Below, one piece after another: positions 10,398 through 58,364 of a stretch of DNA of 64,000 nt (the stretch's first letter is position 1; every line of letters begins with the position of its first letter). The notes below the pieces were generated by a model. That model made no database searches. It saw only the letters and a list, made by a program, of their open reading frames with translations, and was not told the DNA's origin. The stretch comes from Sphingomonas jinjuensis. GTDB taxonomy: Bacteria > Pseudomonadota > Alphaproteobacteria > Sphingomonadales > Sphingomonadaceae. The DNA lies in the NCBI RefSeq assembly GCF_014197105.1, contig NZ_JACIEV010000008.1, forward strand, positions 62,001-126,000, given 5' to 3'. Made by a program: the position numbers and the translations under genes.

Positions 10398-10419
10398 CCG
10401 CTTCCGATGGATACCCAGT

Positions 10420-12355: not shown

Positions 12356-12357
12356 CG

Positions 12358-12382
12358 CTCCCCTCCCTTGCAGGGAGGGGAG
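12358..12382. terminator. GC-rich hairpin between convergent pheA and nudC
   Basis: CTCCCCTCCCT and AGGGAGGGGAG make a perfect 11-bp stem with a TGC loop. It fits exactly between the stops of two convergent genes. There is no T-run on either side, so it may work as a weak bidirectional terminator or an RNA-stabilising end. Confidence 0.6.
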
Positions 12383-13258
12383 TTAGGAAGTGGCCCACTC
12401 CGTCAGCAGCGTGTGGGCGATGGCGTAGGGCGGCGGCGGCAGGAAGCTGCCCTCTCCCCCTGCCAGCACGCGGGCGACCTCATCGCGGGGCACCCAGATG
12501 GCGTCCTCCAGCTCGTTGGTGTCGAGCGTGATCGTCGGATCGTCGGCGGTGGCGATGCAGGCCATCATCAGCGACGAGGCGAAGGGCCAGGGCTGGCTGG
12601 CGACGTAACGCACGTCGTGGACGACCACGCCGCTCTCCTCGCGGATTTCGCGGGCGACTGCCTCCTCGATCGATTCGGCGGGTTCGACGAAGCCGGCGAG
12701 CGCGGAATAACGGCCCGGCGGCCAGCCCTTGCCACGGCCCAGCAGCGCGCGGCCGTCATGCTCCGCGATCATGATGACGACGGGGTCGACGCGGGGAAAA
12801 TGCTCGGTGCCGCAGCCGGTGCAGCGGCGGCCCCAGCCGGCGCGGAATGGCTCGGTCGCGTGGCCGCAGTTGGCGCAATAGCCGTGGCGCGCGTGCCAGA
12901 GGATCAGGCTGCGCGCGGCGGCATAGGTTTGCGCCTCGCCCGGCTGAAGCGTTGCGAGCGCGCGCGTCATCGCCGGGGAGCGCATCGGCGTCGCCTCCGC
13001 AGCCGGCAGGTGCGAGGGCAGTGCGGCGAAATGCGCGACGCCATGGTCGTCGAGGCCGAGCAGGATCGGCACCGCATCGTCGGCCAGCTCCGCGATGCTG
13101 GTCCAGCCGAGCTGCCCCTCGTTGTCCACGTCGGGTAGCAGGCCGTCGAGAAGCAGCAACCGCGCCCGTACGTTCATCGCCGCGGCCAGCTTCGCCGGAT
13201 CGTGGCGCAGCCCATCGGCACGGTCGAGCGTGCCGCCGGTCAGTCCAGCGCGGATCAC
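12383..13258 (-). CDS. nudC: NAD+ diphosphatase / NAD-cap decapping hydrolase (Nudix)
   Basis: This is a 291-residue Nudix protein. It contains a central zinc ribbon (CANC ... CTGC, about residues 120-140) and a Nudix box GFVEPAESIEEAVAREIREESG with the metal-binding REIREE core, followed by a SQPWPFASS segment that corresponds to the NADH-pyrophosphatase motif SQPWPFPxS; the Pro before x is Ala here. NudC enzymes cleave NADH and remove the NAD cap from RNA. It is the last gene of a mutY-serine hydrolase-nudC run joined by 4-bp overlaps, so an oxidised-nucleotide or repair context is possible. Confidence 0.93.
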   Translation of the reverse strand: MIRAGLTGGTLDRADGLRHDPAKLAAAMNVRARLLLLDGLLPDVDNEGQLGWTSIAELADDAVPILLGLDDHGVAHFAALPSHLPAAEATPMRSPAMTRALATLQPGEAQTYAAARSLILWHARHGYCANCGHATEPFRAGWGRRCTGCGTEHFPRVDPVVIMIAEHDGRALLGRGKGWPPGRYSALAGFVEPAESIEEAVAREIREESGVVVHDVRYVASQPWPFASSLMMACIATADDPTITLDTNELEDAIWVPRDEVARVLAGGEGSFLPPPPYAIAHTLLTEWATS

Positions 13259-42119: not shown

Positions 42120-42995
42120 TTACGAGACGGGCACCCCGCCCGTCACTGCGACGACGTTGCCCGACATGTAGCTGCCCTCCGCCGACGCCAGCAGGACATA
42201 GGCGGGGGCGAGTTCGGCGGGCTGGCCGGCGCGACCCAGCGGCGTGTCGTGGCCGAGCGTTTCCAGCTCCTCGGGCGATTTCGCGATCGGCTGGATCGGG
42301 GTCCAGATCGGCCCCGGCGCGACCGCGTTGACGCGGATGCCGTCGGCGGCGAGCAGGTTCGACAGGCCGACGGTCAGGCTAGAGATCGCGCCCTTGGTCG
42401 CGGCGTAGACCACCATGCTCTCGGTTGCGACCTTGGCCTGCTCGCTGGTCGTGTTCACGATCGCCGATCCCGGCTTCAAGTGCGGGCGCGCCGCCTTGGC
42501 GAGGCGGATCATCGCGAAGACGTTGGCGGCGAAGGCGCCCTGCATATCGTCGTCGTCGATCGTCTCGATGCCCTGGTTGATGGTCTGCGCGGCGGCGTTG
42601 TTGACGAGGATGTCGAGCGCGCCGAGGTCGCCGACGGTCCGCTCGACCAGCTGCGCGCAATGGTCGCGGTCGCGGATGTCGCCGGGGAGAAGCAGGCAGC
42701 GGCGGCCTGCCTTTTCCACCCAGGCCCGCGTCTCTTCGGCATCGACCTGCTCCGCCTCGAGGTAGGAGATGGCGACGTCGGCGCCCTCCCGGGCATAGGC
42801 GATGGCGACGGCGCGGCCGATCCCGGAATCGCCGCCGGTGATGAGCGCCACCTTATCCGTCAGCAGCCCCTTGCCGACATAGCTTTCCTCGCCGTGATCG
42901 GGCTTGGTTCGCATCAACGTGGTCAGGCCTGGGCGGGGCTGATGCGGTTCGTCGGGGAAGCTGGTGGGCCGATCGGCGGGCGCGTCGTTGGTCAT
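42120..42995 (-). CDS. SDR family oxidoreductase, GSP39/YhdF-like
   Basis: This is a 291-residue SDR with an N-terminal extension (PDEPHQPRPGL, KPDHGEESY) typical of the glucose/ribitol-dehydrogenase-like general stress group. The cofactor loop is TGGDSGIG, catalytic residues are a Ser in NTTSEQA and YAATK. ATG 42995 is used; the open frame to 43133 is GC-rich without homology. It is upstream of the LOV kinase gene with 37 bases between and probably shares its transcript. A paralogue lies at 46864-47757. Members of this group are frequently stress-induced; the natural substrate is unknown. Confidence 0.9.
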   Translation of the reverse strand: MTNDAPADRPTSFPDEPHQPRPGLTTLMRTKPDHGEESYVGKGLLTDKVALITGGDSGIGRAVAIAYAREGADVAISYLEAEQVDAEETRAWVEKAGRRCLLLPGDIRDRDHCAQLVERTVGDLGALDILVNNAAAQTINQGIETIDDDDMQGAFAANVFAMIRLAKAARPHLKPGSAIVNTTSEQAKVATESMVVYAATKGAISSLTVGLSNLLAADGIRVNAVAPGPIWTPIQPIAKSPEELETLGHDTPLGRAGQPAELAPAYVLLASAEGSYMSGNVVAVTGGVPVS

Positions 42996-43155
42996 ATCGG
43001 CTCCTGTCTGCTGACGAAGCGCAACGGCTGGCATCGGGTTTCGTGCCGCCGTCGGCGACTTATCGCCGATGACGAGCAATTCCGGCGCCATGCCGGAACT
43101 TGCGAGCCGGCGGCGAGCTTCATCCCACATCAACGACGTATGTGATGGGACCCAG

Positions 43156-44487
43156 GTGGCGCGGATCTTCTACCTTCACGCGCTGGGCGCGAGTGCCGCC
43201 GAGTGGGACGGTGTCATCGACACGATCGGAGCCGAGGTCGAGCATGTGGCGCTCGACCTTTCCGGCTTCGGCGGTAGCGACGACGCCCGCCTGGATGTCG
43301 CAGGGCTGGTCGACTGGTTCGCGGATCGCGTCGGCGACCATCGGCCGGATAGTTGGGCGGTCGTCGGCCACAGCATGGGCGGCAAGATCGCGACGCTGGC
43401 GGCGGCGCGTGCGCGCGACGGCGATCCGGCCTTCAGCGGGCTGGCCGCCGTCGTCCTGCTGGCTGCGTCGCCGCCATCGCCAGAGCCGATCGACGAGGAA
43501 CGCCGCGCCGAGATGATCGCGTGGTTCGACGACGGCAGGATCGATGCGGACGAGGCGGCAACCTTCGTCGATGCCAACACGGCGACGCCGCTGCCCGATC
43601 CCCTGCGCGCGAAGGCGATCGCGGACGTGCAGCGATCGGGGCGCGAGGCATGGGTCGGTTGGCTCGAGCGGGGCAGCCGCGAGGACTGGGCGGAGGCGGC
43701 GGGAGTCATCGCGGTGCCGGCGCTGATCGTGGCAGGCGGGGAGGATGGCGACCTCGGCATCGAGGCGCAGCAGCGGCTCAATGTGCCGCATTATGCCGAT
43801 GCACGGGTCGAGGTGGTGGCGGGCGCAGCGCATCTGCTACCTTACGAGCGGCCTGCCGACGTGGCGGCGCTGATCCGCGACCATGTGCGGCCGGCATTCG
43901 CATCGGCACTGCCCGCCGACTTCGTCGCGCTGCTCGCCTCCGATCGCGTCAGCCGGCGGACGCGGGCGGTGATGACGGCGCGCCATGCGGCACCGATCGG
44001 GAAGAGCGTCCTCACCGAACGGCAGCGCGACGTGCTCGCGGCGCTGGTCGAGACGACCCTGCCCGGGGTGTGCGATGGTGCCGATCTTGCCCGCCGGATC
44101 GATGCGATGCTGGCATCGGGACAGGGCGACGGCTGGCGCCTCGTTGATCTGCCGGCGGATGAGTCGAGCTGGGCGATGGCGCTGGATACGCTGGCCAGCG
44201 ATGGCTTCGTCGATTGCGACGGCGAGGCCAGGGGCGACGCATTGCGCCGCATCGCCGAGGGTTCGGGCGGCGATACCGGATCGCTGACTGCAGCGCAGAT
44301 GCGGCTGTGGTTCGCCGAGGCGCGTGCGGAGATCGCGCGGCAATGGATGGCGCTGCCCGCGACGATGGCGCTGGTCGGCTATGACGGCTTCGCGGTCGGC
44401 GGCGATGGCGAGCGCAAGCAGGGCTATCGGCTGACGGCGGCGGACATGATCGAGCCCTGGCAGGTGCAGCCGGGAGCCGTCGCATGA
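43156..44487 (+). CDS. Alpha/beta hydrolase fused to gluconate 2-dehydrogenase subunit 3-like domain
   Basis: This is 443 residues from GTG 43156 (ATG 43069 would add 29). The first 245 residues are an alpha/beta hydrolase: FYLHALGAS oxyanion region, nucleophile elbow GHSMGGK, acidic residue region GGEDGDL and catalytic His in GAAHLLPYERP. The last 165 residues begin LTERQRDVLAALVETTLPG and end ALPATMALVGYDGFAVGG...GYRLTAADMIEPWQ, a pattern I match to the gluconate-2-dehydrogenase subunit 3 family that partners GMC dehydrogenases. The fusion is unusual: subunit 3 is normally a separate small exported protein. No signal peptide is visible. It overlaps the GMC gene by 4 bases, supporting the partnership. 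Confidence 0.82.
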   Translation: MARIFYLHALGASAAEWDGVIDTIGAEVEHVALDLSGFGGSDDARLDVAGLVDWFADRVGDHRPDSWAVVGHSMGGKIATLAAARARDGDPAFSGLAAVVLLAASPPSPEPIDEERRAEMIAWFDDGRIDADEAATFVDANTATPLPDPLRAKAIADVQRSGREAWVGWLERGSREDWAEAAGVIAVPALIVAGGEDGDLGIEAQQRLNVPHYADARVEVVAGAAHLLPYERPADVAALIRDHVRPAFASALPADFVALLASDRVSRRTRAVMTARHAAPIGKSVLTERQRDVLAALVETTLPGVCDGADLARRIDAMLASGQGDGWRLVDLPADESSWAMALDTLASDGFVDCDGEARGDALRRIAEGSGGDTGSLTAAQMRLWFAEARAEIARQWMALPATMALVGYDGFAVGGDGERKQGYRLTAADMIEPWQVQPGAVA

Positions 44488-46004
44488 CCGGCGGCGCCGT
44501 CGATGTCGTGATCGTCGGCAGCGGTGCCGGCGGCGCGCCGCTGGCCGCCCGGTTGGCGCAGGCGGGCGTCTCGGTCGTGGTGCTGGAGGCGGGACGTGCG
44601 TTCGCGCCGAGCGACCATGTCGCGGACGAACTCGCCGCCGATATCTATTGGATGGAGGAGCGGCTGAGCGGCGGGCGCGATGCCACCGCGTTCGGCGCCA
44701 ACAACAGCGGCATGGGCGTCGGCGGATCGACGCTGCACTGGGGCGCCTTTTGCCCAAGGCCTGACGCGCGCGATCTGCAATTGCAGACGCTGGCCGGCGT
44801 CGGCGCCGACTGGCCGATCGCGCACGCCGAACTCGCTCGCTACGTCGAGGCGGTCGAGGGGTTCATCGGCGTGTCGGGGCCGGTGCGCTACCCGTGGGAC
44901 GACGCGCGCCGCTACGAGCTGCCCCCGGTCGCGCGCAACGCGCCGGCCGATGCGATGGCGCGGGGCTGCGCGGCGCTGGGCATCGCGGCGACCGACGCCC
45001 CGGCCGCGCTGGTGTCGCGCGATCGAGAGCAGCCGCATTGGGGTGAGCGGCAGGCGTGTATCAACTGCGGCTTCTGCCACCAGGGATGCCGCGTCGCGGC
45101 CAAGGCCACCACCGACACCAGCTGGCTGCCGCTGGCCATCGCGCATGGTGCCGAGGTTCGCGCGGAATGCCGCGTCGTCGAGGTCGAGCGCGATGGCCGC
45201 GGACGAATCACGGCCGTCGTCTACGACCGGCGTGGCGAGCGGCTGCGGCAGAAGTGCGCGGCGCTGTTCCTGTGCGCCGGCGGCGTCGAGACGCCGCGGC
45301 TGCTGCTCAACTGGGGGCTCGCCAATGCCAGCGGGCAGGTCGGGCGCAACTTCATGGCGCATGTCGCGACGCAGGTTTGGGGGCGCTTCGATGCCGATAT
45401 GCGGATGAACCGCGGCTATCCCTCCTCGCTGATCAGCGAGGACATGATGCGTCCCGCCGGTGCCGGTTTCGCCGGTGGCTATCTGATGCAGAGCCTGGGG
45501 GTGTTGCCGGTGACGCTTGCCGCCAACCTGGCGCGCGGGGCGGGGCTATGGGGCCAGCCGCTGGTCGATATGCTGACGGACTATAACCGCCTGGGCGGGA
45601 TCGGGATCAACGGCGAGTGCCTGCCGTCCGACGACAATCTGCTGACGCTGTCGGACGAAACCGACACCTATGGCCTGCGCAAGGCGCGGGTCGACTTCAG
45701 CTATGGCGACAACGAGCGCGCGATTGACGCCCACGCGCGTAGGGCGATGACGGCGATCTGGGAGGCGGCAGGCGCGCGCGACATCGTCGCGGTCGATAGG
45801 TCGGCGCATACCATCGGCACCTGCCGGATGGGGACGAACGGCGACGAGGCGGTGGTCGATGCCGACGGCCGCAGCTTCGACGTCGAAAACCTCTTCATCT
45901 GCGACAATTCGGTGTTCCCGAGCGCCCTCGCCGCCAATCCGGCGCTGACGATCATGGCGCTGTCACTGCGCTGTGCCGACCGCTTCCTCGCAAACCGCAT
46001 CTGA
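44484..46004 (+). CDS. GMC-family FAD-dependent dehydrogenase
   Basis: This is a 506-residue protein with the FAD-binding GSGAGGAPLAARLAQAG near the N-terminus, GGSTLHWGAF and the C-terminal catalytic region HTIGTCRMG ... NPALTIMALS with conserved His and Asn. Four cysteines C192-x2-C195-x2-C198-x3-C202 (CINCGFCHQGC) resemble an iron-sulfur cluster site, as known for several membrane-bound sugar dehydrogenases of this superfamily. It probably oxidises an alcohol or sugar with a non-oxygen acceptor. It begins in ATGA overlap with the hydrolase/subunit-3 fusion and precedes an SDR by 12 bases. No cytochrome c subunit is adjacent and no signal peptide is visible. Confidence 0.9.
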   Translation: MTGGAVDVVIVGSGAGGAPLAARLAQAGVSVVVLEAGRAFAPSDHVADELAADIYWMEERLSGGRDATAFGANNSGMGVGGSTLHWGAFCPRPDARDLQLQTLAGVGADWPIAHAELARYVEAVEGFIGVSGPVRYPWDDARRYELPPVARNAPADAMARGCAALGIAATDAPAALVSRDREQPHWGERQACINCGFCHQGCRVAAKATTDTSWLPLAIAHGAEVRAECRVVEVERDGRGRITAVVYDRRGERLRQKCAALFLCAGGVETPRLLLNWGLANASGQVGRNFMAHVATQVWGRFDADMRMNRGYPSSLISEDMMRPAGAGFAGGYLMQSLGVLPVTLAANLARGAGLWGQPLVDMLTDYNRLGGIGINGECLPSDDNLLTLSDETDTYGLRKARVDFSYGDNERAIDAHARRAMTAIWEAAGARDIVAVDRSAHTIGTCRMGTNGDEAVVDADGRSFDVENLFICDNSVFPSALAANPALTIMALSLRCADRFLANRI

Positions 46005-46016
46005 AGGAGAAATTGT

Positions 46017-46820
46017 ATGGACCTGGGCATCAAGGGCCGGATCGCGCTGATCAGCGGGTCTGATTCCGGTATGGGCAAGGAGACGGCGCGGCTGTTGCTG
46101 GAAGCGGGCGTCCGCGTCGCGCTGACCGACAAGCCGGGCGGTACGATCGACGAGGCGGTGAACGAGCTGTCGCCGCTCGGTGAGGTGATCGCGGTGACCG
46201 GCGACGTCACCAAGCCGGACGACGTCGCCTCCATCTGGCGCCAGGTGCGCGAGAAGCTGGGCGATCCCGACATCTATGTGAATGCGGCCGGCGTGACGGG
46301 TGCGACCGGCGATTTCCTGGAGGTCGACGATGCCGGCTGGCTGGAGACGCTCGACATCAACCTGATGGGCGCGGTGCGGATGTGCCGCGAGGCGATTCCG
46401 GCGATGCGGCGCAGCGGCTGGGGGCGGATCGTGCTGTTCGCATCGGAAGATGCGGTGCAGCCCTATGTCGACGAACTTGCCTATTGCGCGTCGAAGGCCG
46501 GGATCCTCAGCCTCGCGAAGGGGCTGTCCAAGGCCTATGGCTGCGACAATGTGCTGGTGAACACGGTGTCGCCGGCGTTCATCGCGACGCCGATGACCGA
46601 TAAGATGATGCGGAAGCGCGCCGAGGAACAGGGCGTGAGCTTCGACGAGGCGATCGAGAGCTTCCTCGACGAGGAACGCCCTGGCATGGTGCTGAAGCGG
46701 CGCGGCAAGCCCGAGGAGGTCGCCGCCGCCGTCGCCTTCCTGGTGTCGGAGCGCGCGAGTTTCATCAATGGCGCGGGTATCCGGGTCGATTCAGGCTCCG
46801 TCTTCACGATCGCCGGCTGA
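46017..46820 (+). CDS. SDR family oxidoreductase in the GMC operon
   Basis: This is a 267-residue classical SDR. The cofactor loop is SGSDSGMG, the fourth strand gives NAAG, the catalytic Ser is in FASEDA and YCASK carries Tyr and Lys. The C-terminal end is FINGAGIRVDSGSVFTIAG. An AAGGAG ribosome-binding site precedes ATG 46017. It is the third gene of the hydrolase-GMC-SDR set; consecutive oxidations or epimerisation of one carbohydrate-like substrate is a reasonable inference. A terminator hairpin follows. Confidence 0.9.
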   Translation: MDLGIKGRIALISGSDSGMGKETARLLLEAGVRVALTDKPGGTIDEAVNELSPLGEVIAVTGDVTKPDDVASIWRQVREKLGDPDIYVNAAGVTGATGDFLEVDDAGWLETLDINLMGAVRMCREAIPAMRRSGWGRIVLFASEDAVQPYVDELAYCASKAGILSLAKGLSKAYGCDNVLVNTVSPAFIATPMTDKMMRKRAEEQGVSFDEAIESFLDEERPGMVLKRRGKPEEVAAAVAFLVSERASFINGAGIRVDSGSVFTIAG

Positions 46821-46831
46821 GCGGAAAGAAG

Positions 46832-46856
46832 CCCCGGCGGATCAGCGCCGCCGGGG
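46832..46856. terminator. Bidirectional terminator
   Basis: CCCCGGCGG and CCGCCGGGG make a perfect 9-bp stem around ATCAGCG. It stands between two convergent SDR genes, with TCTCGTTTC on the plus side and CTTCTTTCC on the minus side. Confidence 0.82.
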
Positions 46857-46863
46857 TCTCGTT

Positions 46864-47757
46864 TCAGGCGATGCCGGCGCCGCCGGTCACGCCGTAGACC
46901 TCGCCGTTGATATAGCTCGCCTCCTGGCTGGCGAGCAGGACATAGACCGGCGCGATCTCGACCGGCTGGCCGGGGCGGCCATAGGCGCTCTTCTCGCCGA
47001 ACTTCATCACCGCTCCCTCGGGCTGGCCGCCCGACGATTGCAGCGGCGTCCAGAACGGGCCCGGCGCGACGACGTTGGCGCGGATGCCCTTTTCCAGCAG
47101 CTGCGCGGCCAGCGCTTTGGTGTAGGCGACGATACCCGCCTTCGTCGTGGCATAGTCGAGCAGGATGGCCGAGGGATCATAGGCCTGGACCGACGCGGTG
47201 GTGATCACCGCAGCGCCGGCGGGCAGGTGCGGCACCGCGGCCTGCGCGATCCAGTGCATCGCATAGAGGTTGGTCTTCAGCGTCCGATCGAAATCGGCGG
47301 ACGACACCTCGGCGATATTCTCGCGATACTGCTGGCTGCCCGCGTTGATAACGAGAATGTCGAGGCCGCCCAGCTTCTCCACCGCCTGCTCGACCAGCGA
47401 TCGGCACCAGGCCTCGTCGGTGATGTCGCCGGGCAGGTCGACGGCGGTGCGCCCCTCCGCCTCGATCAGGGCGATAACGTTGGCGGCGTCCTGGCGCTCG
47501 GAGGGCAGGTACGCGATGGCGACGTCGGCGCCCTCGCGGGCATAGGCGATCGCGGCGGCGCGACCGATGCCGCTGTCGCCGCCGGTAATCAGGGCCTTGC
47601 GCTCGGTCAGCTTGCCCGAACCGCGGTAGCTCTCCTCGCCATGGTCGGGGACGGGGTCCATCTTCGCGGCGGTGCCCGGCACCGGCTGCGGCTGGCGGGG
47701 GAAGGGGGGCTTGGGATATTGCTCGCGCGGGTCCTGCATCGTCAGACGATTGGTCAT
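46864..47757 (-). CDS. SDR family oxidoreductase, GSP39/YhdF-like (paralogue)
   Basis: This is a 297-residue SDR with the same N-terminal signature as the protein at 42120 (PVPDHGEESYRGSGKL then TGGDSGIGRA), and catalytic Ser in TTASVQA and YATTK. The two share long identical stretches such as AYAREGADVAI, so they are paralogues. ATG 47757 has GGAG upstream. It lies 45 bases downstream of the GH15 gene on the same strand and may be cotranscribed with it. Confidence 0.9.
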   Translation of the reverse strand: MTNRLTMQDPREQYPKPPFPRQPQPVPGTAAKMDPVPDHGEESYRGSGKLTERKALITGGDSGIGRAAAIAYAREGADVAIAYLPSERQDAANVIALIEAEGRTAVDLPGDITDEAWCRSLVEQAVEKLGGLDILVINAGSQQYRENIAEVSSADFDRTLKTNLYAMHWIAQAAVPHLPAGAAVITTASVQAYDPSAILLDYATTKAGIVAYTKALAAQLLEKGIRANVVAPGPFWTPLQSSGGQPEGAVMKFGEKSAYGRPGQPVEIAPVYVLLASQEASYINGEVYGVTGGAGIA

Positions 47758-47802
47758 GAATTTCTCCGTTGAGGGGACGGTGACCAACCGTCGACGTGCC
47801 GA

Positions 47803-49629
47803 TCAGTCGCAGGCCGCGGCGTCGTTCAGGACGGAAAGCGCCATTAAATGGGCAAGATGGCTCAATCCTTGAGGCATGTTACCCAGAAATTCGTGGGCAT
47901 GCGGGTCGACCATCTCGGCCAGGACGCCATGGCCGTCGGGTAGCGCCGCCACCAGCGCGTCGAGCGCCGCGCGCGCCTGGTCGCGCTGGCCCAGCTGCGC
48001 CCGCGCCTCGACCATCCAGAACGAGCAGGCGAGGAAGCAACCCTCCTCGCTCGCCATGCCGGTGTAGCGGTAATGGAAGGGGCCAGCGCCCAGCTCGCGA
48101 TCGATCGCATCGAGCGTCAGCCGCAGTCGGTCGGCGCCGTCGAAGCCGAAGCGAACGGCCAGCGCCATCGAGGCGTCGATCTTGTCGCTGCCGGGGTACA
48201 TGACGAACGACTGCTGGCTGTTCGACCAGCATTCGCGTTCGATCCACGCCTTGATCCGGTCGCGCTCGCGCTGCCAGCGTTCGCGGCAGGTGGTCGGCAA
48301 CTGGCCCCCGTCGGCCAGTTCGACGGCACGGGCCAGCGCCTGCCAGCAGCTGACCTTCGACATGGTATAGTGTTGCTGTTCCTGAAGCTCCCACATGCCG
48401 GCGTCGGGCAGGCGCCAGCGGTCGGCGCATTGATCGGCCAGATGCGACAGCAGTTCGGCGCTGGCGCTGTCGAGGATGTTGCCGCTGGCGACGAAGCAGG
48501 ATGCGGTTTCGAAGATATCGCCATAGACGCCGTGCTGGCTCTGGTCGGTGGCGAGGTTGCCGGTCACGACGGGGCGGCTGCCGCGATAGCCAGGCATCGC
48601 CCATTCGGCGACGTCAGGCACCACGCCGCCGTCAAGCGTGTAGCAGACGCGCGTGCCGGTCTCCCGCAACTGGTTGAGCAGCCACGTGAATGCGGCCTTC
48701 GCCTCGGCCTGGGCGCCGGCGGTCAGGAACGCCTTGATCGTGTAGCCCGCGTCGCGGATCCAGGCGTAGCGATAGTCGAAGTTCTTGGCTCCGCCGATCC
48801 CTTCGGGCAGCGAGGTGGTCGCCGCCGCGGCGATCGCGCCCGACGGCGAGTACAGCAGCAGCTTCAGCGCGAGGGCGCTGCGGACGAAGGCGGGGCGATC
48901 GTCACCGTCATAGGTGAGGCGGGCGGCCCAGTCGCGCCATTCGGTGTCGGACAGGTCGATGCGCGCGTCGATCTCCTCGATTCCCGGTGCGACCAGCGGC
49001 TCGTCGCGCCCCGCCACGATCGCGACGGTGCGACGCTCGCCGGCGTTCACGATCACCTCGCCGGTGATGCCCTCGTCCGACCAGCGACAGGTGATCGCCG
49101 GATGATGGACGAAGAGGCCAAGCACGCGCTCGACATGGAAGACGGTGTGCTTGCCGATCGTCGAATGATAGGGATTGACGGTGTCGCCGCGGCGCCCCGG
49201 GCGCATCGTCAGCGCGAAACGGACGCTGCCCTCCAGCCCCTCGATCCGGCGGGCGAGCTCGGCCCAGGGCAGGCGGCCGGCGGTGCCGCTGTTGAGCGAT
49301 TCGGTCAGCCGTGCGCGCCCGGTGTCGGTGGTGAAGACCGTCTCGAGCACATTGCTGTCGTCGCGATAGCGGCGCTCGATCGTGAAGGGTGCGTCGGGCG
49401 TCAGGCTGAACCGGCCGCCTTCCTCCGCGTCGAGCAGGCGATCGAACAGCGGCGGCGAATCGAGATTGGGGACGCACCACCAGTCGATCGAACCGTCGGT
49501 GCCCGACAGCACCACCGACCGGCCGTCGCCGAGTGCGCCATAGCGGGCGAGCGGCAGATAGCCGTCGATCCGAGCATCGGGACGGGCTGCTGCGTCGCCG
49601 AAGAGGCGGTCGACCAGCGCGGTCAGCAT
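47803..49629 (-). CDS. Glycoside hydrolase family 15 protein (glucoamylase/trehalase-like)
   Basis: This is a 608-residue cytoplasmic-looking protein with no signal peptide. The N-terminal beta-sandwich (about 20-230) begins DGYLPLARYGALGDGRSVVLSG, a common GH15 start. The (alpha/alpha)6 barrel includes NFDYRYAWIRDAGYTI, MWELQEQQHYTMSKVSCW near the first catalytic acid, and EMVDPHAHEFLGNMPQGLSHL near the second. Bacterial GH15 proteins of this length hydrolyse alpha-glucosides; some are acid trehalases. The sugar cannot be fixed from sequence. It could turn over an alpha-glucoside such as trehalose made under stress. It is divergent from the Rieske-FAD gene and precedes an SDR. Confidence 0.92.
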   Translation of the reverse strand: MLTALVDRLFGDAAARPDARIDGYLPLARYGALGDGRSVVLSGTDGSIDWWCVPNLDSPPLFDRLLDAEEGGRFSLTPDAPFTIERRYRDDSNVLETVFTTDTGRARLTESLNSGTAGRLPWAELARRIEGLEGSVRFALTMRPGRRGDTVNPYHSTIGKHTVFHVERVLGLFVHHPAITCRWSDEGITGEVIVNAGERRTVAIVAGRDEPLVAPGIEEIDARIDLSDTEWRDWAARLTYDGDDRPAFVRSALALKLLLYSPSGAIAAAATTSLPEGIGGAKNFDYRYAWIRDAGYTIKAFLTAGAQAEAKAAFTWLLNQLRETGTRVCYTLDGGVVPDVAEWAMPGYRGSRPVVTGNLATDQSQHGVYGDIFETASCFVASGNILDSASAELLSHLADQCADRWRLPDAGMWELQEQQHYTMSKVSCWQALARAVELADGGQLPTTCRERWQRERDRIKAWIERECWSNSQQSFVMYPGSDKIDASMALAVRFGFDGADRLRLTLDAIDRELGAGPFHYRYTGMASEEGCFLACSFWMVEARAQLGQRDQARAALDALVAALPDGHGVLAEMVDPHAHEFLGNMPQGLSHLAHLMALSVLNDAAACD

Positions 49630-51367: not shown

Positions 51368-52273
51368 TCACCGCCGTTGGCGTGCCGCGGCATAGGCGAC
51401 CATGCCGCGCCAGGTGTGGCGGAGGCGGAAGCGGTAGAAATGGCGGATGCCGCGGTGGATCGTCACGGGCGCGCGGCGATCCTTGGCAAGGCTGGCGAGG
51501 TCGCGCAGCAGGATCGGCAGTACGCGGCGGTCGCGGAACAGGTGCTTGGCGTAGAGCGCGCCGTCGCCGAAGCCATAGCCTGCGAGCAGCGCGGTCTCCT
51601 CGGTCACGGCGCGGCGGCCGTGATGATGCGCGACGGTAAAGCGCGGGTCGTAGAGGACGGGAATGCCGGCGCCGAGCGCGCGGAAGAGGAAGTCGGTATC
51701 CTCGGCAGCGACGAAGGGGGCGCCGGCGCCGAACCGCTCGTCGAAGTCGCCGACCCGCGTGAGCACATCCGCGGTAAAGGCGAGGTTGGCGCCCATCACG
51801 AAACCGCCCGGGAAGCCGCGCGCCGGCGCGACCATCGGATGGTCTTCGGTCTTTACCGTGATCGGAAGGTCGGCGGGGTCGCCCGGCAGGATGCGGCCAC
51901 CGATGACGACGGGCTCACGAAGGCCTGCGAAACAGGCGGCGAGCGCGGTGAAATAGTCGCGATGGAGGCGGCAGTCGTCGTCGGTCATCGCGATGATCGC
52001 GCCGCCGGCCGCCGCCAGCGCCCGGTTGCGCGCACGGGCGAGGCCGGCGCGAGGCTCGTGGAGGAGGGTGACGTTCGTTGCCTGCTTCGCGCGCCATTGC
52101 TCGACGATGCTCGCGGTGTCGTCGGTCGAGCCGTTGTCGACGATGACGATGTCGATGGTCAGGCTTGGGGCCGCGCTCAACGCGTCGGTGATCGATGCCA
52201 GCAGCAGCGAAAGCGACGCACTGCGGTTGCGGGTGCAGACGAGGAGGCTGATGTCGATCGCGGATTGGGTCAC
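51368..52273 (-). CDS. Glycosyltransferase family 2 protein
   Basis: This is 301 residues from GTG 52273. A GT-A fold is evident: ISLLVCTRNRSASL at the start, VDNGSTDDT, and metal-binding MTDDDCR (DxD-type), then the acceptor-side AAEDTDFLFRAL (ED motif). It ends the six-gene operon and overlaps the pyruvyltransferase gene by GTGA. It transfers a sugar from a nucleotide donor; donor and acceptor are unknown. Confidence 0.9.
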   Translation of the reverse strand: MTQSAIDISLLVCTRNRSASLSLLLASITDALSAAPSLTIDIVIVDNGSTDDTASIVEQWRAKQATNVTLLHEPRAGLARARNRALAAAGGAIIAMTDDDCRLHRDYFTALAACFAGLREPVVIGGRILPGDPADLPITVKTEDHPMVAPARGFPGGFVMGANLAFTADVLTRVGDFDERFGAGAPFVAAEDTDFLFRALGAGIPVLYDPRFTVAHHHGRRAVTEETALLAGYGFGDGALYAKHLFRDRRVLPILLRDLASLAKDRRAPVTIHRGIRHFYRFRLRHTWRGMVAYAAARQRR

Positions 52274-53154
52274 GCTGGCAACGGCTCGCGAAGCAAGAGC
52301 GGCGAGCCGCTGGTCCAGGCGTCGATATAGGCGCCGACCTTGCCGTAGCGATTGTCGAGCACCCGGTGCGGGATATCGAGCAGCAGCGCCAGGATATGGC
52401 CGTGGAGCCGGTCGGTGACGATCATGCGCCCGCGCGACAGCAGGGCGAGGCCGCGTTGCAGCCTCGCGTCCGCCTGACGCTGGCGCGAGGCGAAATCGGT
52501 GCCGCCGATCGCAGCGTCGTCGTGAAGCCAATCGACGACCTCGGCATCCGCCGGCACGATCGACACATGATCGCGACGCTCGCTGTCGCTGCGCATCAAC
52601 GCCAGAGTCTCGACGGTCGGCGCTCGGCGAGGCTGCGTGCCGAGCGCGAAAGCGGAGTCGGGGGCGAGCAGCGTGCGGTCGCCGAGCCAGGTGGTGGCGA
52701 TGGCGAGGCTGGGGCGGTCGCGGACGTAGAGCGTCAGGTCCGGGTGAACGTCGGCGAGATCGGCGAAGCGGTAGGCCGCGACGGGATCGTCGAAGTGGAT
52801 CGATTGCGGCAGCTGGACGAGGCGATAGTCATGCAGCGCGCGGACGACGCCTTCGCGGAAACGCTGGTGATGCGGCCAGATGTCGCCGAGGTTGCCGCCG
52901 CCGTGGAGGAAGACGATGCCGTCGGGACAGGCGGCGCGGAAGGCGGCTTCGTCGAAGTCGTGCCAGCACGAGATATAGCAGGGATCGCGCCCGGTGATCC
53001 GCCGCAGCATCGCCATTTCGCCAAGCCAGATCGCGCTGTCGCCGACATTCGCATGGTCGGGAAAATCAAGCAGCGCATAACGGTCGCCGGCGCCGACATG
53101 CGTCCGGTACAGCCGATCGAGCGCGGCCTGCTGGACGGCGACGACGTCGGTCAT
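52270..53154 (-). CDS. Polysaccharide pyruvyl transferase family protein
   Basis: This is a 294-residue protein. It has the family's opening DFPDHANVGDSAIWLGE, the HGGGNLGDIWP loop and the C-terminal VTDRLHGHILALLL motif. The family includes ketal pyruvyltransferases of exopolysaccharide synthesis (ExoV, CsaB) but also proteins of other function. Here it follows glycosyltransferases and may add a charged pyruvyl group to a sugar. Overlaps on both sides are 4 bases. Confidence 0.9.
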   Translation of the reverse strand: MTDVVAVQQAALDRLYRTHVGAGDRYALLDFPDHANVGDSAIWLGEMAMLRRITGRDPCYISCWHDFDEAAFRAACPDGIVFLHGGGNLGDIWPHHQRFREGVVRALHDYRLVQLPQSIHFDDPVAAYRFADLADVHPDLTLYVRDRPSLAIATTWLGDRTLLAPDSAFALGTQPRRAPTVETLALMRSDSERRDHVSIVPADAEVVDWLHDDAAIGGTDFASRQRQADARLQRGLALLSRGRMIVTDRLHGHILALLLDIPHRVLDNRYGKVGAYIDAWTSGSPLLLREPLPA

Positions 53155-54224
53155 GCCGCGAGCGTTGCGGTGGCGGCGGCGACGCTGCGATACAGCGCCT
53201 CGCAGCGATCGAGCCAGCGGTCGTGGGTGAACAGGCGAAGCACGCGGTTGCGCGCGATACGGCGGGGGATGGCGAGCGCCTCGACCATCGCGTCGGCGAG
53301 CGCGGCGACGTCGCAGGGCGGCGCGAACACGCCGGCCTCGCCGATCACCTCGCGCGCGGCGCCCATGTCGAAGGCGGCGACTGGCAGGCCGCAGGCCATC
53401 GCCTCCGCCGCGACGAGCCCGAACGGCTCGTCCCAGCACGGCGTGAAAACGAACAGCGAGGCGCGGCCCAGTTCCCCGGCCAGCGCGTCGCCAGCGAGAT
53501 GACCGCCATAGGCGACGCCGTCGCCGAGCAGCGGCGCGACCTCTGCCTGCCAGTAATCGGGATCCTCGATCGCGCCGAACAAGGTCAGCGGGATGCCGGC
53601 GCGCCGTGCCGCCGCCGCCGCCAGATGCGGGCCCTTGTTGGGGGTGATGCGACCGCACCACGCGGCGGTGCCGTCGCCATGTTCGCCGAACGGCCAGCGT
53701 GCGGGATCGATGCCGTTGTGGAGCACCGAGGCTTCGGCGGGCGCGCCCTTGGGCCACCAGGCGGCGAGCTGGCGCGTCGAGGTGACGGTGAGGTGGTGGC
53801 GCGGCGACGGGCTGGCGGCGACGAACCAGTGGAGCGCGTCATAGGGCGGGACGTGGAGCGAGGTGACCGTCGGCGTCACCGCCGTCCGGCACTGTTCGAG
53901 CGGGAAGCGATGGAGGCTGTTGTTGTGGACGACATCGAAGCCGCCCGCCGCGATCCGGTCGCAGGCGGCGGCATAGCCCGCGTCGAGGTGCGCGATCAGC
54001 GGCTGGGTGCCGCGATGCTCGGCCCAGGGGAAGGTCCGCTCATAATGTTCGGCGACGACGGGATCGATAGCGAAGCGCGGGTCGCTGTCGCCCGAGGCGA
54101 ACAGGACGACGTCGTGGCCGCGCCGCTGCAGCCCGTCGGCGAGATGCCAGCAGTGCGACTCCATCCCGCCGGCGAACGGCTGGGCGATCCGCTGGCGGAC
54201 ATGGGCGAGGATCGCGATCCTCAT
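53151..54224 (-). CDS. Glycosyltransferase family 4 protein
   Basis: This is a 357-residue GT-B enzyme. The N-terminus shows ILAHVRQRIAQPFAGGMESHCWHLADGL with the glycine-rich acceptor loop, a middle VVHNNSLHRF strand, and a C-terminal donor site FTPCWDEPFGLVAAEAMACGLPV with the E-x7-E motif. It likely uses UDP- or GDP-sugar with retention of configuration. ATG 54224 overlaps the upstream GT2 gene by 4 bases. Confidence 0.92.
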   Translation of the reverse strand: MRIAILAHVRQRIAQPFAGGMESHCWHLADGLQRRGHDVVLFASGDSDPRFAIDPVVAEHYERTFPWAEHRGTQPLIAHLDAGYAAACDRIAAGGFDVVHNNSLHRFPLEQCRTAVTPTVTSLHVPPYDALHWFVAASPSPRHHLTVTSTRQLAAWWPKGAPAEASVLHNGIDPARWPFGEHGDGTAAWCGRITPNKGPHLAAAAARRAGIPLTLFGAIEDPDYWQAEVAPLLGDGVAYGGHLAGDALAGELGRASLFVFTPCWDEPFGLVAAEAMACGLPVAAFDMGAAREVIGEAGVFAPPCDVAALADAMVEALAIPRRIARNRVLRLFTHDRWLDRCEALYRSVAAATATLAA

Positions 54225-55150
54225 GCGGCGGCGACGACATCCCGGTGACCCTGCGCCACCATCGCCTCCAGCTGGCGGATGACGCTGGCGGTGTTGGCAT
54301 AGGGCTGGTGGCTCTGCTGCCCGGTCAGCGCGAGATCGTCGGCATCGGGGCGGCGCAGGATGCGGATCGACTGGCCGGCGGTGTCGTCGATCAGCCCCAT
54401 CAGGCGGAAGGCGTGCAGCCAATGGCCCATGGTGCGATACCCCCATTTCGCCTCGAACAGCTCGGCGTTGCGCACCACGCTGTCGAGATGGTGGACCGGC
54501 GGCATGTGGTGGGGATGATATTGGTGATAGGCGAGGCCGCCCTTGATCCAGGCGATCGCTATGCCGTGCTGGTCGAGCGTCTTCCCGAAGTCGGTATCCT
54601 CGCCGCCATAGCCGCTGTAGCGCTCGTCGAACCCGCCGACCGCCAGGAAGGTCGCGCGACGCATCGCGAAGTTGAGCGACCAGAAGCAGCGATAGTCGGC
54701 GCAGATCTCGATGCCGCGCGGCGGCGGGCCGCGGCGGTCGGAATGGCGGACGGCGACGCTGGCGAAGCGGTCATAGTCCCAGGCGTTGGTCGCGCCGCCG
54801 GGGAGGTACATGACCTCGCCCATCAGCAGCCCGTCGAAATCGGCGATGAAGCCCGCATAGTCGGCGACGAGGCTTGGGGTCGGGATACAGTCCATGTCGA
54901 GGAACACGAGCACCTCGCCCGTCGCCAGTCGCGCCGCGGCGTTGCGCGCCGCCGCCAGCGGCAGGGCGTCGTCGGTGATACGGATCTGGCGGATCGGGAA
55001 CGACGCCTCGGGCAGGACATAATCCTCGTCCTGCATCACCGCGACGATCAGCTCGGTAGGCATGAGGGTCTGGCGGGTGAGGCCGTGGACGACGTTGACG
55101 AGGTGATCGGGGCGTCCCTTGGCCAGGGTGACGACGGAAACGGCGGTCAT
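54221..55150 (-). CDS. Glycosyltransferase family 2 protein (galactosyltransferase-type C-terminus)
   Basis: This is a 309-residue GT-A enzyme. It starts VSVVTLAKGRPDHLVNV, has FLDMDCIPTP as its DxD-type metal motif, and GGFDERYSGYGGEDTDFGKTL, the W/F-GGEDxDF pattern of Glyco_transf_7C-type enzymes such as beta-1,4-galactosyl and chondroitin-type transferases. Its closeness in the operon to the GT28-like gene suggests successive sugar additions. ATG 55150 overlaps the upstream gene by 4 bases. Confidence 0.9.
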   Translation of the reverse strand: MTAVSVVTLAKGRPDHLVNVVHGLTRQTLMPTELIVAVMQDEDYVLPEASFPIRQIRITDDALPLAAARNAAARLATGEVLVFLDMDCIPTPSLVADYAGFIADFDGLLMGEVMYLPGGATNAWDYDRFASVAVRHSDRRGPPPRGIEICADYRCFWSLNFAMRRATFLAVGGFDERYSGYGGEDTDFGKTLDQHGIAIAWIKGGLAYHQYHPHHMPPVHHLDSVVRNAELFEAKWGYRTMGHWLHAFRLMGLIDDTAGQSIRILRRPDADDLALTGQQSHQPYANTASVIRQLEAMVAQGHRDVVAAA

Positions 55151-56292
55151 AGGGGACGAGGCTCCAGCGAGGCGGGAAGGTCGGGCGCGGCGAGAGGGGC
55201 GCCGAGGCGGGTGGCGAGCGTTTCCAGCCACAGCGCGACGCGATCGGCGGGGGCGTCGTCGATCATCGCGCGCTGGGCATCGGGGCGATGGCCGGCGAGG
55301 GCTTCGTCGAGCGCTGCGCTCCACCCTTGCGCTGACGAGGGCAGGTGGGGGCGGACGCAGGCGACGCCGGCGGCGGCGAGCGCCTCCGCCTTGCGATGCT
55401 GTTCGTCGAAATAGCGCCATTCGGGCACCGCGAGCCACGGGCGGCCGGCGGCGAGAATTTGCTGGCAGGTGGTATTGCCGGTCGAGGTGATGACGAGATC
55501 GGCGGCGGCGATATAGTCGGCGGCATCGTCGACCCAGCCGCGATACTCGATATTGGCGGGCTCGGTCGCGTGCCAATCATGCTGGACCTTGCCGATCGTG
55601 ATCCAGCGCGCCGACGGGCGGGTGCGCGCGCCGACGCCGAGCGGGGCCTGGGCGAAGCCTTCGCCGCCGCCGCCCGACAGGACGAGGATCAGCTCCTCCT
55701 CGACCGCGACGCCGATCCGCTGGCGCGCGACCTCGCGCTCGGGAAGGCGGACGTCGACGCCGAGGCCGCCCGCGAAGCAGGTCTTGGCGAGGAAGGCGTC
55801 GCTCCATTCGGGCTGGGCGAGATCGGCGTGAAAGGGCGCGAGCAGCCCCGCGGCGCCGTCATAGGCGGCCTGATGGCCCGCATCGCCCCGGTCGCCGTGC
55901 TGGACGACCTTGACGTGGGGCACCGAGCAGATGCGCGCGAGCTGGGCGATTTCCGCCGAGACGTCGCAGATCAGCAGCGCCGGGTCCGCGGCGTCGAACC
56001 AGGCCGTCAGCGTCGCCATCGCGCGGCGGATGCCGGGCCAGCCGAGCGGGGCGCAGTGGAGCGTCACCGGGGTCGGCACCCAGTCGAGCGATGGCGCTTC
56101 GTCGCCGGTCGGCTCGAACAGCGAGGGCAGGCGGACGATCTCGACGTGCGGGGGCAGAGCCGGGAAGATATCGTCGCGCGCGCAGAAGATGGTCAGCGGA
56201 CGCGATGGCGGCAGCGCGTTGGCGATCGCTGCGCAGCGCTCGGCATGACCGCGGCCCTGGTGATGGACGAAATAGCCGAACGGACGTGTCAT
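55147..56292 (-). CDS. GT28/MGT-like glycosyltransferase
   Basis: This is a 381-residue GT-B protein. The N-terminal FVHHQGRGHAERCAAIANAL is the G-x-GH loop of the MurG/MGT type, and the C-terminal part has ADLVITSTGNTTCQQILAAGRPWLAVP, a nucleotide-sugar site where family members often read SxxGxxTxxEAL. It probably uses a UDP-sugar. It immediately follows the sucrose-phosphate-synthase-like gene and overlaps it by 4 bases. The acceptor is unknown. Confidence 0.85.
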   Translation of the reverse strand: MTRPFGYFVHHQGRGHAERCAAIANALPPSRPLTIFCARDDIFPALPPHVEIVRLPSLFEPTGDEAPSLDWVPTPVTLHCAPLGWPGIRRAMATLTAWFDAADPALLICDVSAEIAQLARICSVPHVKVVQHGDRGDAGHQAAYDGAAGLLAPFHADLAQPEWSDAFLAKTCFAGGLGVDVRLPEREVARQRIGVAVEEELILVLSGGGGEGFAQAPLGVGARTRPSARWITIGKVQHDWHATEPANIEYRGWVDDAADYIAAADLVITSTGNTTCQQILAAGRPWLAVPEWRYFDEQHRKAEALAAAGVACVRPHLPSSAQGWSAALDEALAGHRPDAQRAMIDDAPADRVALWLETLATRLGAPLAAPDLPASLEPRPL

Positions 56293-58313
56293 GCGGCGGC
56301 TGCCACGCTTCGCGCCCCGGCGGCCGCCTTTGGAAGGTCGAGACCAAGTGCGGCCAGCCCCTCGACGACGCCGCCTGCGTGGTGGCGCCTTGCCCGGTAC
56401 AGGCCGGCGCGGGACGGCAGCGAGGCCAGTTCGTCGGACGCATTGCCGACCAGGATTGCGTGGCCGCAGGCGGCGAGCATGTCATGATCGTTGCCGCTGT
56501 CGCCGGCGGCGACGGCGTCGGCCAGCGTCCAGCCGTGGCGGGCGGCGAAGGCGGCAATCGCGGATGCCTTGCCGCCGCTGGGCGCGAGGACGTCGATCAG
56601 GCGGCCATGCGAGAAGACGACGCGGGCCTGAAGCCCGGCATGGGTCAGCGCGCTGCGGATGCGGGCGGCATGGGCGGCGTCGCCGAAGAAGCTGATCTTG
56701 TGCGGACCCTCCGTCACGGGCGGTTGGGAGGCAAGGTCGAGCGTGTCGAGCACGGCGGCGACGCCATCGCGGTCCCACCCCGTGTCGAGCGAGCGGGCAT
56801 AGGCTTCGTCGATGCTCCAGCCGCCCTTGCCATCGGGCAGGCTCAGGGTGGTGCCGACGTCGGTGACGAAGGCATCGGGCATCGGCAGCCGCCAGCGGTT
56901 GAGAATCAGCCGTGCCGCATCGATCCCGCGGCCGGTGGCGACGATGAAGGGTTGCGACGATCGACGGCGCCACTCGGCGAAGGCGGCCGCGCCTTCGCGA
57001 CAGCCGGTGAGCGTGTTGTCGATATCGCTGGCGAGGAAGCGGGGCGTGGCCGCCGCGCCGTATAGCGCGACCGACGATCGGGCGTAGCGATCCCAGCAAT
57101 ACAGGCGGGCACCGCGACGCGCCGCCCGCTGGAGGCGATCATGGTGGGATGGATCGTTCAGGATGGCGAAGACCGCTGCGCCGATCGCGGGCTCGTCGCG
57201 CGGATCGACCAGCGTGCCGTGGCCGATCGTCCCGACGATGTCGGCCGCGCCGCCGTGGCGTGTGGCGACGACGGGGACGCCGGCCGCCGCGGCTTCGATC
57301 AGCGTCAGGCCGAAGGGTTCGTGGAGCGCCGGATTGACGAAGACGCCGCCTCGCGCCGCCAGCGCATAGAGCGCGGCGACGTCGCCGACGTCGTGGCTAG
57401 GCGGCAGGGCGACGCGGCCCTGCAACGCCGGTGTGGCGGCGAGGGCGGACAGTTCGGCGAGGATGGCGGCTTCGTCGGGGCTGGCATGCGCGTGCTGGCC
57501 GGCGAGGATGACGAGGTTGGCGGCGCGGCGCAGCCCGTCGTGCGCGGCGTAGCTGCGGACGAGAGCGGCCAGGTTCTTTTTCGCGACCGGCCGCGCGACC
57601 GCCAGGATGATGGGACGCTCGGGATGGTCGAGCCAGGTCGCGAGCTCGTCCACGAGCGTCGGCGCGGTCGGGACCAGATCGCGGCGCGGGACGCCGGGCG
57701 AGACGACATGGACGCGGGTGCCGAGCGGGACGGCATAGCCGCCGACCTGACGCTGCGCCTCGTCATCGGTCGACACCAGCACCGCCGCCGCGCCGACGAT
57801 CGCCGCGCGTTCGGCCACGATCCGCGCGTCGAGGCTATCGCCGGCGAGCTGCTGGCTGCGTTTATCGATGCCGAGCGCGTGGGGGGTGAAGACGAAGGGA
57901 ATGCCGAAGCGGCGCTGCACGGCCGCGGCGACGGCGGCGGCATCGGCGAAATGGGCGTGGACGACGTCGGGGCGCCGGGGCAGCCTCGCCAGATAGTCGC
58001 ACAGGGCGTCGGTGAAGGCCGGCAGCTCGGCGGCGAGCGCTTCCTTTTCGCAATAGTCCGGGCGGGCGGTCGCGAGCCGGCGGATGTCGAGCTTTGCCGT
58101 GATCGGTTCGTGGGCGACGGCATAGGCGTCACCCAGATGCGGGGCATGGAACAGGCGGGTGACGATCGTCACCTGATCGACGTCGGGCAATGCGGCCTGA
58201 TGCGCCGCGGCTTCGAGAACGTAGGAAATGTGGCCGCCGGTGTCGGCGGTAAGGCCGAACGAGATCGGCGGGCTCTTCAGACAGCCGCCCAACGCCACAT
58301 GCATGATGAACAA
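56289..58313 (-). CDS. Sucrose-phosphate-synthase-like glycosyltransferase fused to HAD sugar phosphatase
   Basis: This is a 674-residue two-domain protein. The GT4 part (about 1-415) opens with ISFGLTADTGGHISYVLEAA, matching the DTGGQ loop of sucrose-phosphate synthases, has donor-site lysines 245-246 (RPVAKKN) and E332-x7-E340 in HEPFGLTLIE. The C-terminal part (about 424-660) is a HAD-IIB phosphatase with D430-x-D432 (SDIDNTLTG) and GDSGNDHDML (604-613), as in sucrose-6-phosphate phosphatase. The fusion would make and dephosphorylate a disaccharide such as sucrose or mannosylfructose, or a related glycoside. The start may be TTG 58313 (AGGGGG upstream) or ATG 58304. First gene of the operon. 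Confidence 0.9.
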   Translation of the reverse strand: MFIMHVALGGCLKSPPISFGLTADTGGHISYVLEAAAHQAALPDVDQVTIVTRLFHAPHLGDAYAVAHEPITAKLDIRRLATARPDYCEKEALAAELPAFTDALCDYLARLPRRPDVVHAHFADAAAVAAAVQRRFGIPFVFTPHALGIDKRSQQLAGDSLDARIVAERAAIVGAAAVLVSTDDEAQRQVGGYAVPLGTRVHVVSPGVPRRDLVPTAPTLVDELATWLDHPERPIILAVARPVAKKNLAALVRSYAAHDGLRRAANLVILAGQHAHASPDEAAILAELSALAATPALQGRVALPPSHDVGDVAALYALAARGGVFVNPALHEPFGLTLIEAAAAGVPVVATRHGGAADIVGTIGHGTLVDPRDEPAIGAAVFAILNDPSHHDRLQRAARRGARLYCWDRYARSSVALYGAAATPRFLASDIDNTLTGCREGAAAFAEWRRRSSQPFIVATGRGIDAARLILNRWRLPMPDAFVTDVGTTLSLPDGKGGWSIDEAYARSLDTGWDRDGVAAVLDTLDLASQPPVTEGPHKISFFGDAAHAARIRSALTHAGLQARVVFSHGRLIDVLAPSGGKASAIAAFAARHGWTLADAVAAGDSGNDHDMLAACGHAILVGNASDELASLPSRAGLYRARRHHAGGVVEGLAALGLDLPKAAAGARSVAAAA

Positions 58314-58339: not shown

Positions 58340-58364
58340 AACGTCGATGCTGTCGTATCGCTCC
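58340..58364 (-). promoter_or_regulatory. Possible EcfG-type promoter of the glycosyltransferase operon
   Basis: On the minus strand GGAGC (58364-58360), a 16-base spacer and CGTT (58343-58340) differ by one base from GGAAC-N16-CGTT. The -10 ends 26 bases before TTG 58313, a fitting distance. Curiously the plus strand of the same site reads GGAAC-N16-CGCT. Confidence 0.38.

Follow-up and report, generated by a model that had tools for sequence, protein, structure and literature searches.

Mannosylfructose in Agrobacterium, a sucrose analogue that serves as an osmolyte, is made by a mannosylfructose-phosphate synthase and phosphatase, that is, by a GT4 enzyme resembling sucrose-phosphate synthase (SPS) and an S6PP-type phosphatase. 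The system consists of two separate genes and is not known to include further transferases; its likeness to the locus described here is one of enzyme type. In the cyanobacterial glucosylsucrose pathway, the genes of TeSPS (tll1590) and TeGSS (tll1591) are adjacent, and TeGSS makes glucosylsucrose, raised by salt and heat stress (excerpts of PMC9909042). The present analysis concerns a six-gene glycosyltransferase operon on the minus strand, at positions 51368-58313 of a 64,000-nucleotide stretch of the Sphingomonas jinjuensis genome (contig NZ_JACIEV010000008.1, positions 62,001 to 126,000; hereafter the window). Like the cyanobacterial pathway as excerpted, the operon encodes an SPS-type first enzyme (gene 1) close to a GT4 enzyme of the TeGSS group (gene 4), and, as proposed here, it would likewise build a soluble oligosaccharide on a disaccharide primer in connection with stress. 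It differs in that gene 1 carries GGH in place of GGQ and falls outside the SPS clade, gene 4 lacks W10 and mostly lacks Y18, two extra transferases from inverting families are present, often along with an enzyme that adds an acidic group, and the regulator is EcfG (in S. melonis Fr1). The original prediction, made from the letters of the window, had described the set as matching no standard sucrose, mannosylfructose, sphingan or LPS gene set; a parallel does exist in the resemblance of genes 1 and 4 to the cyanobacterial pair of SPS and glucosylsucrose synthase.

An orthologous operon, #3505-#3509, is present in S. melonis Fr1 (PMC6599016), the link being made through motifs in the S. aquatilis locus L054. 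In the excerpted text of that paper, its expression is reported under the labels glycosyltransferase and Exopolysaccharide biosynthesis protein, with no pathway or product given. In the literature searched, with subscription journals largely outside it, no report naming the pathway or its product was found; nothing was found for mannosylfructose in Sphingomonas, and in connection with compatible solutes the single paper listed concerned cyanobacteria. The earlier view of a dedicated gene set for a small glycoside or oligosaccharide is supported, with no described product found. As to regulation, a publication already reports that the Fr1 counterpart of the operon is expressed in an EcfG-dependent manner (PMC6599016, in excerpt).

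On balance, the operon is probably an EcfG-dependent pathway of the general stress response, and its product would be a soluble charged oligosaccharide with a protectant role under stress. With a nucleotide sugar as donor, probably UDP-glucose, gene 1 would attach a hexose to a small acceptor that carries a phosphate; the HAD domain of the same protein would strip this phosphate to leave a free disaccharide-like primer, related to sucrose but probably not sucrose. Gene 4, a retaining GT4 enzyme resembling glucosylsucrose synthase, would lengthen this primer together with genes 2 and 3, which belong to inverting-type families, to give a short oligosaccharide. The Sphingomonas operons would then complete the chain through genes 5 and 6, with a pyruvate ketal and one more sugar, whereas the negative charge in many Rhodobacterales and other Sphingomonadaceae would come from a linked sulfotransferase in place of pyruvate.

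The six open reading frames (ORFs) and their span are confirmed by an ORF check of the window, and all five junctions are 4-base overlaps, ATGA at four of them and GTGA at the last, between genes 5 and 6. The layout originally read from the window is therefore borne out by coordinates and junctions alike, and Pfam agrees with the domain identities given for every gene. A chance overlap or an artefact is ruled out by the conservation of gene order, strand and overlap in relatives.

Genes 1-4 are a conserved core module, and this core is common to many alphaproteobacteria. The comparison covers 100 loci: 80 named loci, which are the best 80 of 209 relatives from a genome-collection scan with gene 2, and 20 family-sample stretches drawn from 28 genomes with gene 1 (the source genome is represented by the window, and seven others were left out). 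Related species in these counts are non-independent observations. All four genes are found as ORFs in 75/80 named loci and in 92/100 overall. The eight incomplete loci include the contig ends L031, L051 and L069, the broken L096, L079 with no gene 4 match, L046 and L047, in which gene 2 lies elsewhere, and L080, in which a coordinate filter dropped a gene 3 that tblastn detects. In tblastn comparisons, order and strand are the same in nearly all 80 named loci, the exceptions being L121 and L127 (gene 4), L079 without gene 4, the broken L096, and L051 and L069, which are cut by contig ends; in the family sample, gene 4 occurs on the opposite strand. Among same-strand pairs, the 4-base overlap recurs in 69/93 for genes 1/2, 55/92 for genes 2/3 and 53/75 for genes 3/4.

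Because the 80 loci were picked by gene 2, the family sample serves as a test. Among 298 family genomes, 28 carry gene 1 (E<=1e-60) and 36 carry gene 2; restricting gene 2 to E below 1e-110 leaves 28 genomes, and these coincide exactly with the gene 1 carriers. In G029 and G112, both genes are present, with gene 2 on a different contig from gene 1. Genomes G027, G057, G157, G171, G217, G225, G287 and G294 have no gene 1, and their gene 2 relative is distant, with E about 1e-68 to 1e-73. The hosts comprise Sphingomonas, Sphingobium, Novosphingobium, Acetobacteraceae, Rhodobacterales and Pseudochelatococcus, and the distribution is patchy: E 1e-40 is reached in 4/385 class-sample genomes, the source genome among them. 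Plasmids also carry the module: at E 1e-30 there are 29 plasmid records, including two from Acidithiobacillus. Co-occurrence beyond this strain had been named beforehand as the check, and a restriction to this strain as the outcome that would undo the prediction; the module recurs across several alphaproteobacterial groups, far past S. jinjuensis. The six genes hold together as a unit in part, with genes 1-4 widely kept and genes 5 and 6 seen, among the loci examined, in Sphingomonas-type loci only.

A few of these loci merit separate description. Two records titled Arthrobacter sp. TPD3018 (L055) and Microvirga sp. SRT01 (L064) contain Sphingomonas-type six-gene operons with gene 2 identities of 83% and 78%, and the genus names on both look wrong. 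On the Methylobacterium bullatum plasmid L158, positions 7891-15077 hold a second-type set in the order gene 1-3-2 and, apart from it, close copies of gene 3 (78% identical) and gene 4 (73% identical), which gives the impression of an encounter between two module versions. On the Paracoccus yeei plasmid L162, positions 8992-12150 hold gene 1, with GGA for GGH, and gene 4 beside a plasmid replication gene; genes 2 and 3 have no match within the 14.2 kb plasmid stretch.

Gene 1 (56289..58313, minus strand) joins an SPS-like GT4 domain (residues 1-420) to an S6PP-type HAD phosphatase domain (residues 422-653), with two candidate starts, TTG at 58313 and ATG at 58304. Pfam recognizes Glycos_transf_1 and S6PP (phosphatase E 2.4e-49), and the cut-off of the S6PP-type HAD family (PF05116) is passed with 168.6 bits vs 20.3. 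These features raise the reading of an ordinary sucrose or glucosylsucrose operon, in which a divergent SPS/SPP (gene 1) and a glucosylsucrose synthase (gene 4) would act alongside the remaining enzymes, which would decorate a sucrose core; we consider it unlikely. In its favour, the nearest families are SPS, SPP and TeGSS, TeSPS is tied as the best structural match (Z 42.2), and the phosphate-binding residues are retained. The score of gene 1 on the SPS equivalog domain (TIGR02472) is, however, only about half of the curated cut-off of 576, at 289.8 bits (293.5 in the genome search). In the source genome (3.85 Mb, 33 contigs), the SPS model has one full-length gene match and nine other matches that are short and weak; 21/398 genomes of a phylum sample exceed the cut-off, and the source genome does not.

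The motif at the acceptor side divides the proteins in the same manner. GGQ is present in 21/21 proteins over the SPS cut-off, whereas GGH, with H25, is present in 100/100 operon gene 1 proteins and in all nine proteins retrieved below the cut-off (four more below it were left out). In TeSPS, Gln51 contacts the fructose hydroxyls (excerpts of PMC7264703), and, judged by spacing, H25 would occupy its position; in the profile alignment, H. orenii SPS and two sucrose synthases place Q at this histidine. In a maximum-likelihood tree with a midpoint root, in which 13 of the 21 SPS proteins are included, these 13 and an Acidithiobacillus protein fall in one clade, and window gene 1 with 29 others falls in a separate clade, each with 100/100 support. 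Membership of gene 1 in SPS is rejected on the half cut-off score, GGH vs GGQ and the separate clade. The second-type operon-linked GGH proteins (L046, L048, L049, L158, L184-L186, L189 and L190) group with SPS under the midpoint root, so that GGH proteins need not form one clade. The Acidithiobacillus plasmid protein in the SPS group carries GGQ, and its gene, on plasmid p6 (L159, 10.8 kb), adjoins GH100, PfkB kinase and MFS genes; this group is perhaps a mobile sucrose set.

The residues that serve phosphate binding and catalysis are kept. In TeSPS, R105 and R178 hold the acceptor phosphate (PMC7264703, in excerpt); they align with K87 and R161 of gene 1, both found in 100/100 operon proteins. 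Of the catalytic residues, H142 (TeSPS H158) is kept in 100/100 and E329 (TeSPS E331) in 99/100, with one gap. Since both sets are retained, gene 1 is expected to use a phosphorylated small acceptor, and this acceptor is probably not fructose-6-phosphate bound in the SPS manner. The HAD active site is intact in window gene 1 (D427, D429, T431, K579, D602 and D606, as DxDxT, K and GDSGND) and in 91-92 of the 100 gene 1 proteins in the alignment; the domain itself is absent from most of the remainder. The fusion of synthase and phosphatase, originally put forward as a distinctive trait, is shared with the 21 SPS proteins over the cut-off, which are likewise two-domain (705-746 aa). In the Acetobacteraceae loci L087, L096-L098, L100 and L102, gene 1 lacks the HAD half and retains the acceptor-phosphate residues, L096 being broken. 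In Asaia and Swaminathania, the operon follows genes that read as putative GlgA, GlgB, TreZ and TreY.

MshA uses a phosphorylated acceptor. The AlphaFold model of gene 1 has a pLDDT of 90, and the nearest structures to its GT4 half alone are MshA (Z 42.4) and TeSPS (Z 42.2), which are tied. With MshA as the top structural match, gene 1 could be read as an MshA-like enzyme acting on an inositol phosphate, and the operon as the source of an inositol-based glycoside. This reading is very improbable: the fused phosphatase belongs to the sucrose-phosphatase family, and the sequence profile favours H. orenii SPS (E 2e-72) over MshA (E 1e-40).

Gene 4 (53151..54224, minus strand; GT4 in Pfam) belongs to the group of glucosylsucrose synthase and biopterin glucosyltransferases. 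Its best solved profile match is TeGSS (E 7e-56), followed by biopterin glucosyltransferases at about 1e-49. The donor-site residues R179 and K184 and the edge residue W254 of TeGSS correspond to R192, K197 and W264 of gene 4, which are kept in 77/77 named and 19/19 family-sample proteins. The sucrose-contacting W10 and Y18 of TeGSS, by contrast, are replaced by R10 and A18 in the window; R occupies position 10 in 77/77 named loci, and M, A, L or K occupies position 18 in 74/77. In the family sample (n=19), position 10 is R in 14 and I in 5, and Y18 is found in 3. These substitutions stand against sucrose as the core, and in gene 1 as in gene 4 the altered acceptor side is consistent with a non-sucrose primer.

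Gene 2 (55147..56292, minus strand) encodes a GT-B fold, GT28/GT1-like glycosyltransferase, inverting by family, with Glyco_tran_28_C at E 7e-8 and structural matches to general GT-B relatives such as CalG and MurG. Gene 3 (54221..55150, minus strand) encodes a galactosyltransferase-like GT2 enzyme with the Glyco_transf_7C motif (Glyco_transf_7C/GT2 in Pfam), whose profile matches chondroitin synthase (E 2.5e-11) and, weakly, beta-1,4-galactosyltransferase (E 0.009). Gene 6 (51368..52273, minus strand, GTG start at 52273) encodes a second GT2 enzyme, in agreement with Pfam.

Pvg1, whose acceptor is a yeast glycan, pyruvylates cell-surface glycans, and surface polysaccharides commonly involve both pyruvyltransferases and GT2 enzymes. 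Gene 5 (52270..53154, minus strand) is a Pvg1-like polysaccharide pyruvyltransferase (PS_pyruv_trans, PF04230, E 7.5e-26; 92.1 bits vs a cut-off of 25.3) and matches the profile of Pvg1 (PDB 5ax7) over positions 4-286 of 298 with E 6e-55. On these grounds, genes 2-6 could decorate a lipid or a surface saccharide, giving a glycolipid or envelope glycan; the sulfotransferase of other loci could have a lipid substrate, and dTDP-rhamnose genes come after the module on the Sulfitobacter plasmid L157. By hydropathy, however, no membrane-helix-like stretch is found in any of the six proteins (the highest mean over 19 residues is 1.54), which makes a soluble product likelier than a polymer or lipid, and gene 1 has phosphate-acceptor residues and a domain of the sucrose-phosphatase family. 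No flippase, polymerase or exporter was recognized in neighbour clusters of at least 10/101 loci (four judged by eye; rarer neighbours unannotated). We therefore regard a glycolipid or envelope glycan as quite improbable.

The acidic tailoring differs between lineages. The pyruvyltransferase occurs in 33/40 named Sphingomonas-type loci and in 0/14 Acetobacteraceae, 0/25 Rhodobacterales and 0/20 family-sample loci. A linked Sulfotransfer_3 gene occurs in 17/25 Rhodobacterales and 11/20 family-sample loci, and a Crp-type regulator gene in 8/25 and 13/20, respectively. Pyruvyltransferase and sulfotransferase are found together in 0/100 loci, and either enzyme would give a negative charge. In Pontixanthobacter and its kin, sulfotransferases and a pyruvyltransferase co-occur with halotolerance (PMC10040529, in excerpt), and no tie between these genes and the gene 1-4 module was found in the excerpts. 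More tentatively, as a possibility that we would not yet favour, there may be a widespread EcfG-controlled class of acidic compatible solutes in alphaproteobacteria, made with GGH-type synthase-phosphatases on a non-sucrose primer, pyruvylated in Sphingomonas and sulfated in Rhodobacterales and other Sphingomonadaceae.

The connection with stress comes from S. melonis Fr1, in which #3506-#3509 are among the top 50 EcfG-dependent genes (log2 -3.3 to -4.3) and a #3505 promoter-lacZ fusion is EcfG-dependent (excerpts of PMC6599016). The four motif strings of #3506-#3509, given in Table 1 of that paper, recur in S. aquatilis L054: those of genes 2, 3, 4 and 5 stand 92, 51, 400 and 171 nt upstream, exactly as published, and show 1, 2, 1 and 0 mismatches, respectively. 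Since strings and exact distances match, #3506-#3509 are taken as genes 2-5, and #3505 is taken, by its place, as gene 1. L054 came out of a comparison in which the strings were set against the window plus 16 loci of the 100; S. melonis AS2.3 (L084) showed no match with up to 3 mismatches.

In the window, an EcfG-like promoter element, GGAGC-N16-CGTT, lies 5' of gene 1 at 58340..58364 on the minus strand, with one mismatch to GGAAC-N16/17-CGTT. As 0.83 such matches are expected by chance in the window, the element is not significant alone, and it draws its weight from the conservation of its position in relatives; a strict EcfG motif search of the window returned no match. The same GGAGC-N16-CGTT precedes the EcfG-dependent #1282 of Fr1, with a score of 7.8 vs the authors' cut-off of 10 (PMC6599016, in excerpt). 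With at most one mismatch to GGAAC-N16/17-CGTT, an element stands 5' of gene 1 in 71/99 loci, against resampled means that sum to about 2.5. By group, the counts and resampled means are 31/37 and 0.78 for the Sphingomonas group, 3/3 and 0.07 for Sphingobium, 20/26 and 0.55 for Rhodobacterales with Pseudochelatococcus, 7/13 and 0.42 for Acetobacteraceae, and 10/20 and 0.65 for the family sample. In the Sphingomonas group, the element lies 57-61 bases before the first conserved codons in 29/31 cases and reads GGAGC, GGATC or GGACC in 23/31. The strict form GGAAC-N16/17-SGTT is found 5' of gene 1 in 19/56 non-Sphingomonas regions (resampled mean 0.19, maximum 2). The controls were resampled under a first-order Markov model rather than by exact dinucleotide shuffling, and ORFs with no clear start motif were excluded, three from the one-mismatch count and 14 from the strict count. 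Across the genome, the strict EcfG pattern occurs 14 times and its reversed control 24 times, which shows no enrichment, so that only its position in relatives is used and the motif is never taken alone as proof. This position points to EcfG, or to a related ECF factor, as a likely direct regulator, contrary to the tentative label given by the Fr1 authors.

Several observations weigh against the proposed stress pathway. Its substrates, its product, the order of steps, the solubility of the product and the protective role are all matters that we infer, and glycosyltransferase homology fixes neither acceptor nor solubility. The HAD domain is missing in 9/14 Acetobacteraceae loci, and within these loci no replacement phosphatase was found. 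Neither acidic tailoring gene is present in 39/100 loci, some of them cut by contig ends: all 14 Acetobacteraceae, Pseudochelatococcus, 8/25 Rhodobacterales, 7/40 Sphingomonas-type and 9/20 family-sample loci. On the side of regulation, the Fr1 authors label #3505 a putative indirect EcfG target (excerpts of PMC6599016), and L054, the nearest to Fr1 among the compared loci, has two mismatches 5' of gene 1. The strict GGAAC-N16/17-SGTT occurs in 0/32 Sphingomonas-type upstream regions (resampled mean 0.08) and the zero-mismatch GGAAC-N16/17-CGTT in none of 37 Sphingomonas-group regions, while the one-mismatch criterion was chosen after inspection of the window and its relatives. The antisense strand yields 12/99 overall (3, 0, 2, 1 and 6 in the group order above), and the family sample gives 6/20 vs 10/20 on the sense strand.

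NepR is a core part of the EcfG general stress response, and it is present in the source genome (match at C6:217963-218046). About 1.6 kb from this match, on the same strand, lies a perfect GGAAC-N16-CGTT (G000:C6:216323-216347), which may reflect autoregulation of the stress sigma factor, although the genome as a whole shows no enrichment of such matches. Adjoining the operon, window positions 42120-49629 read as two short-chain dehydrogenases with GDSGIGRA, a GMC-type oxidoreductase and a GH15-like enzyme, genes of a kind found among stress genes.

The PhyR-NepR-EcfG stress response of alphaproteobacteria is well studied, but many of the genes that it controls have no known role. A defined product of this operon would give that general stress response a chemical output and could partly explain how these bacteria survive drying and salt. 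It would also correct the annotation of a family labelled HAD hydrolase in the plasmid records examined, and it would supply new enzymes for the production of protective oligosaccharides, in a module that recurs in plant, soil and marine lineages, plasmids included.

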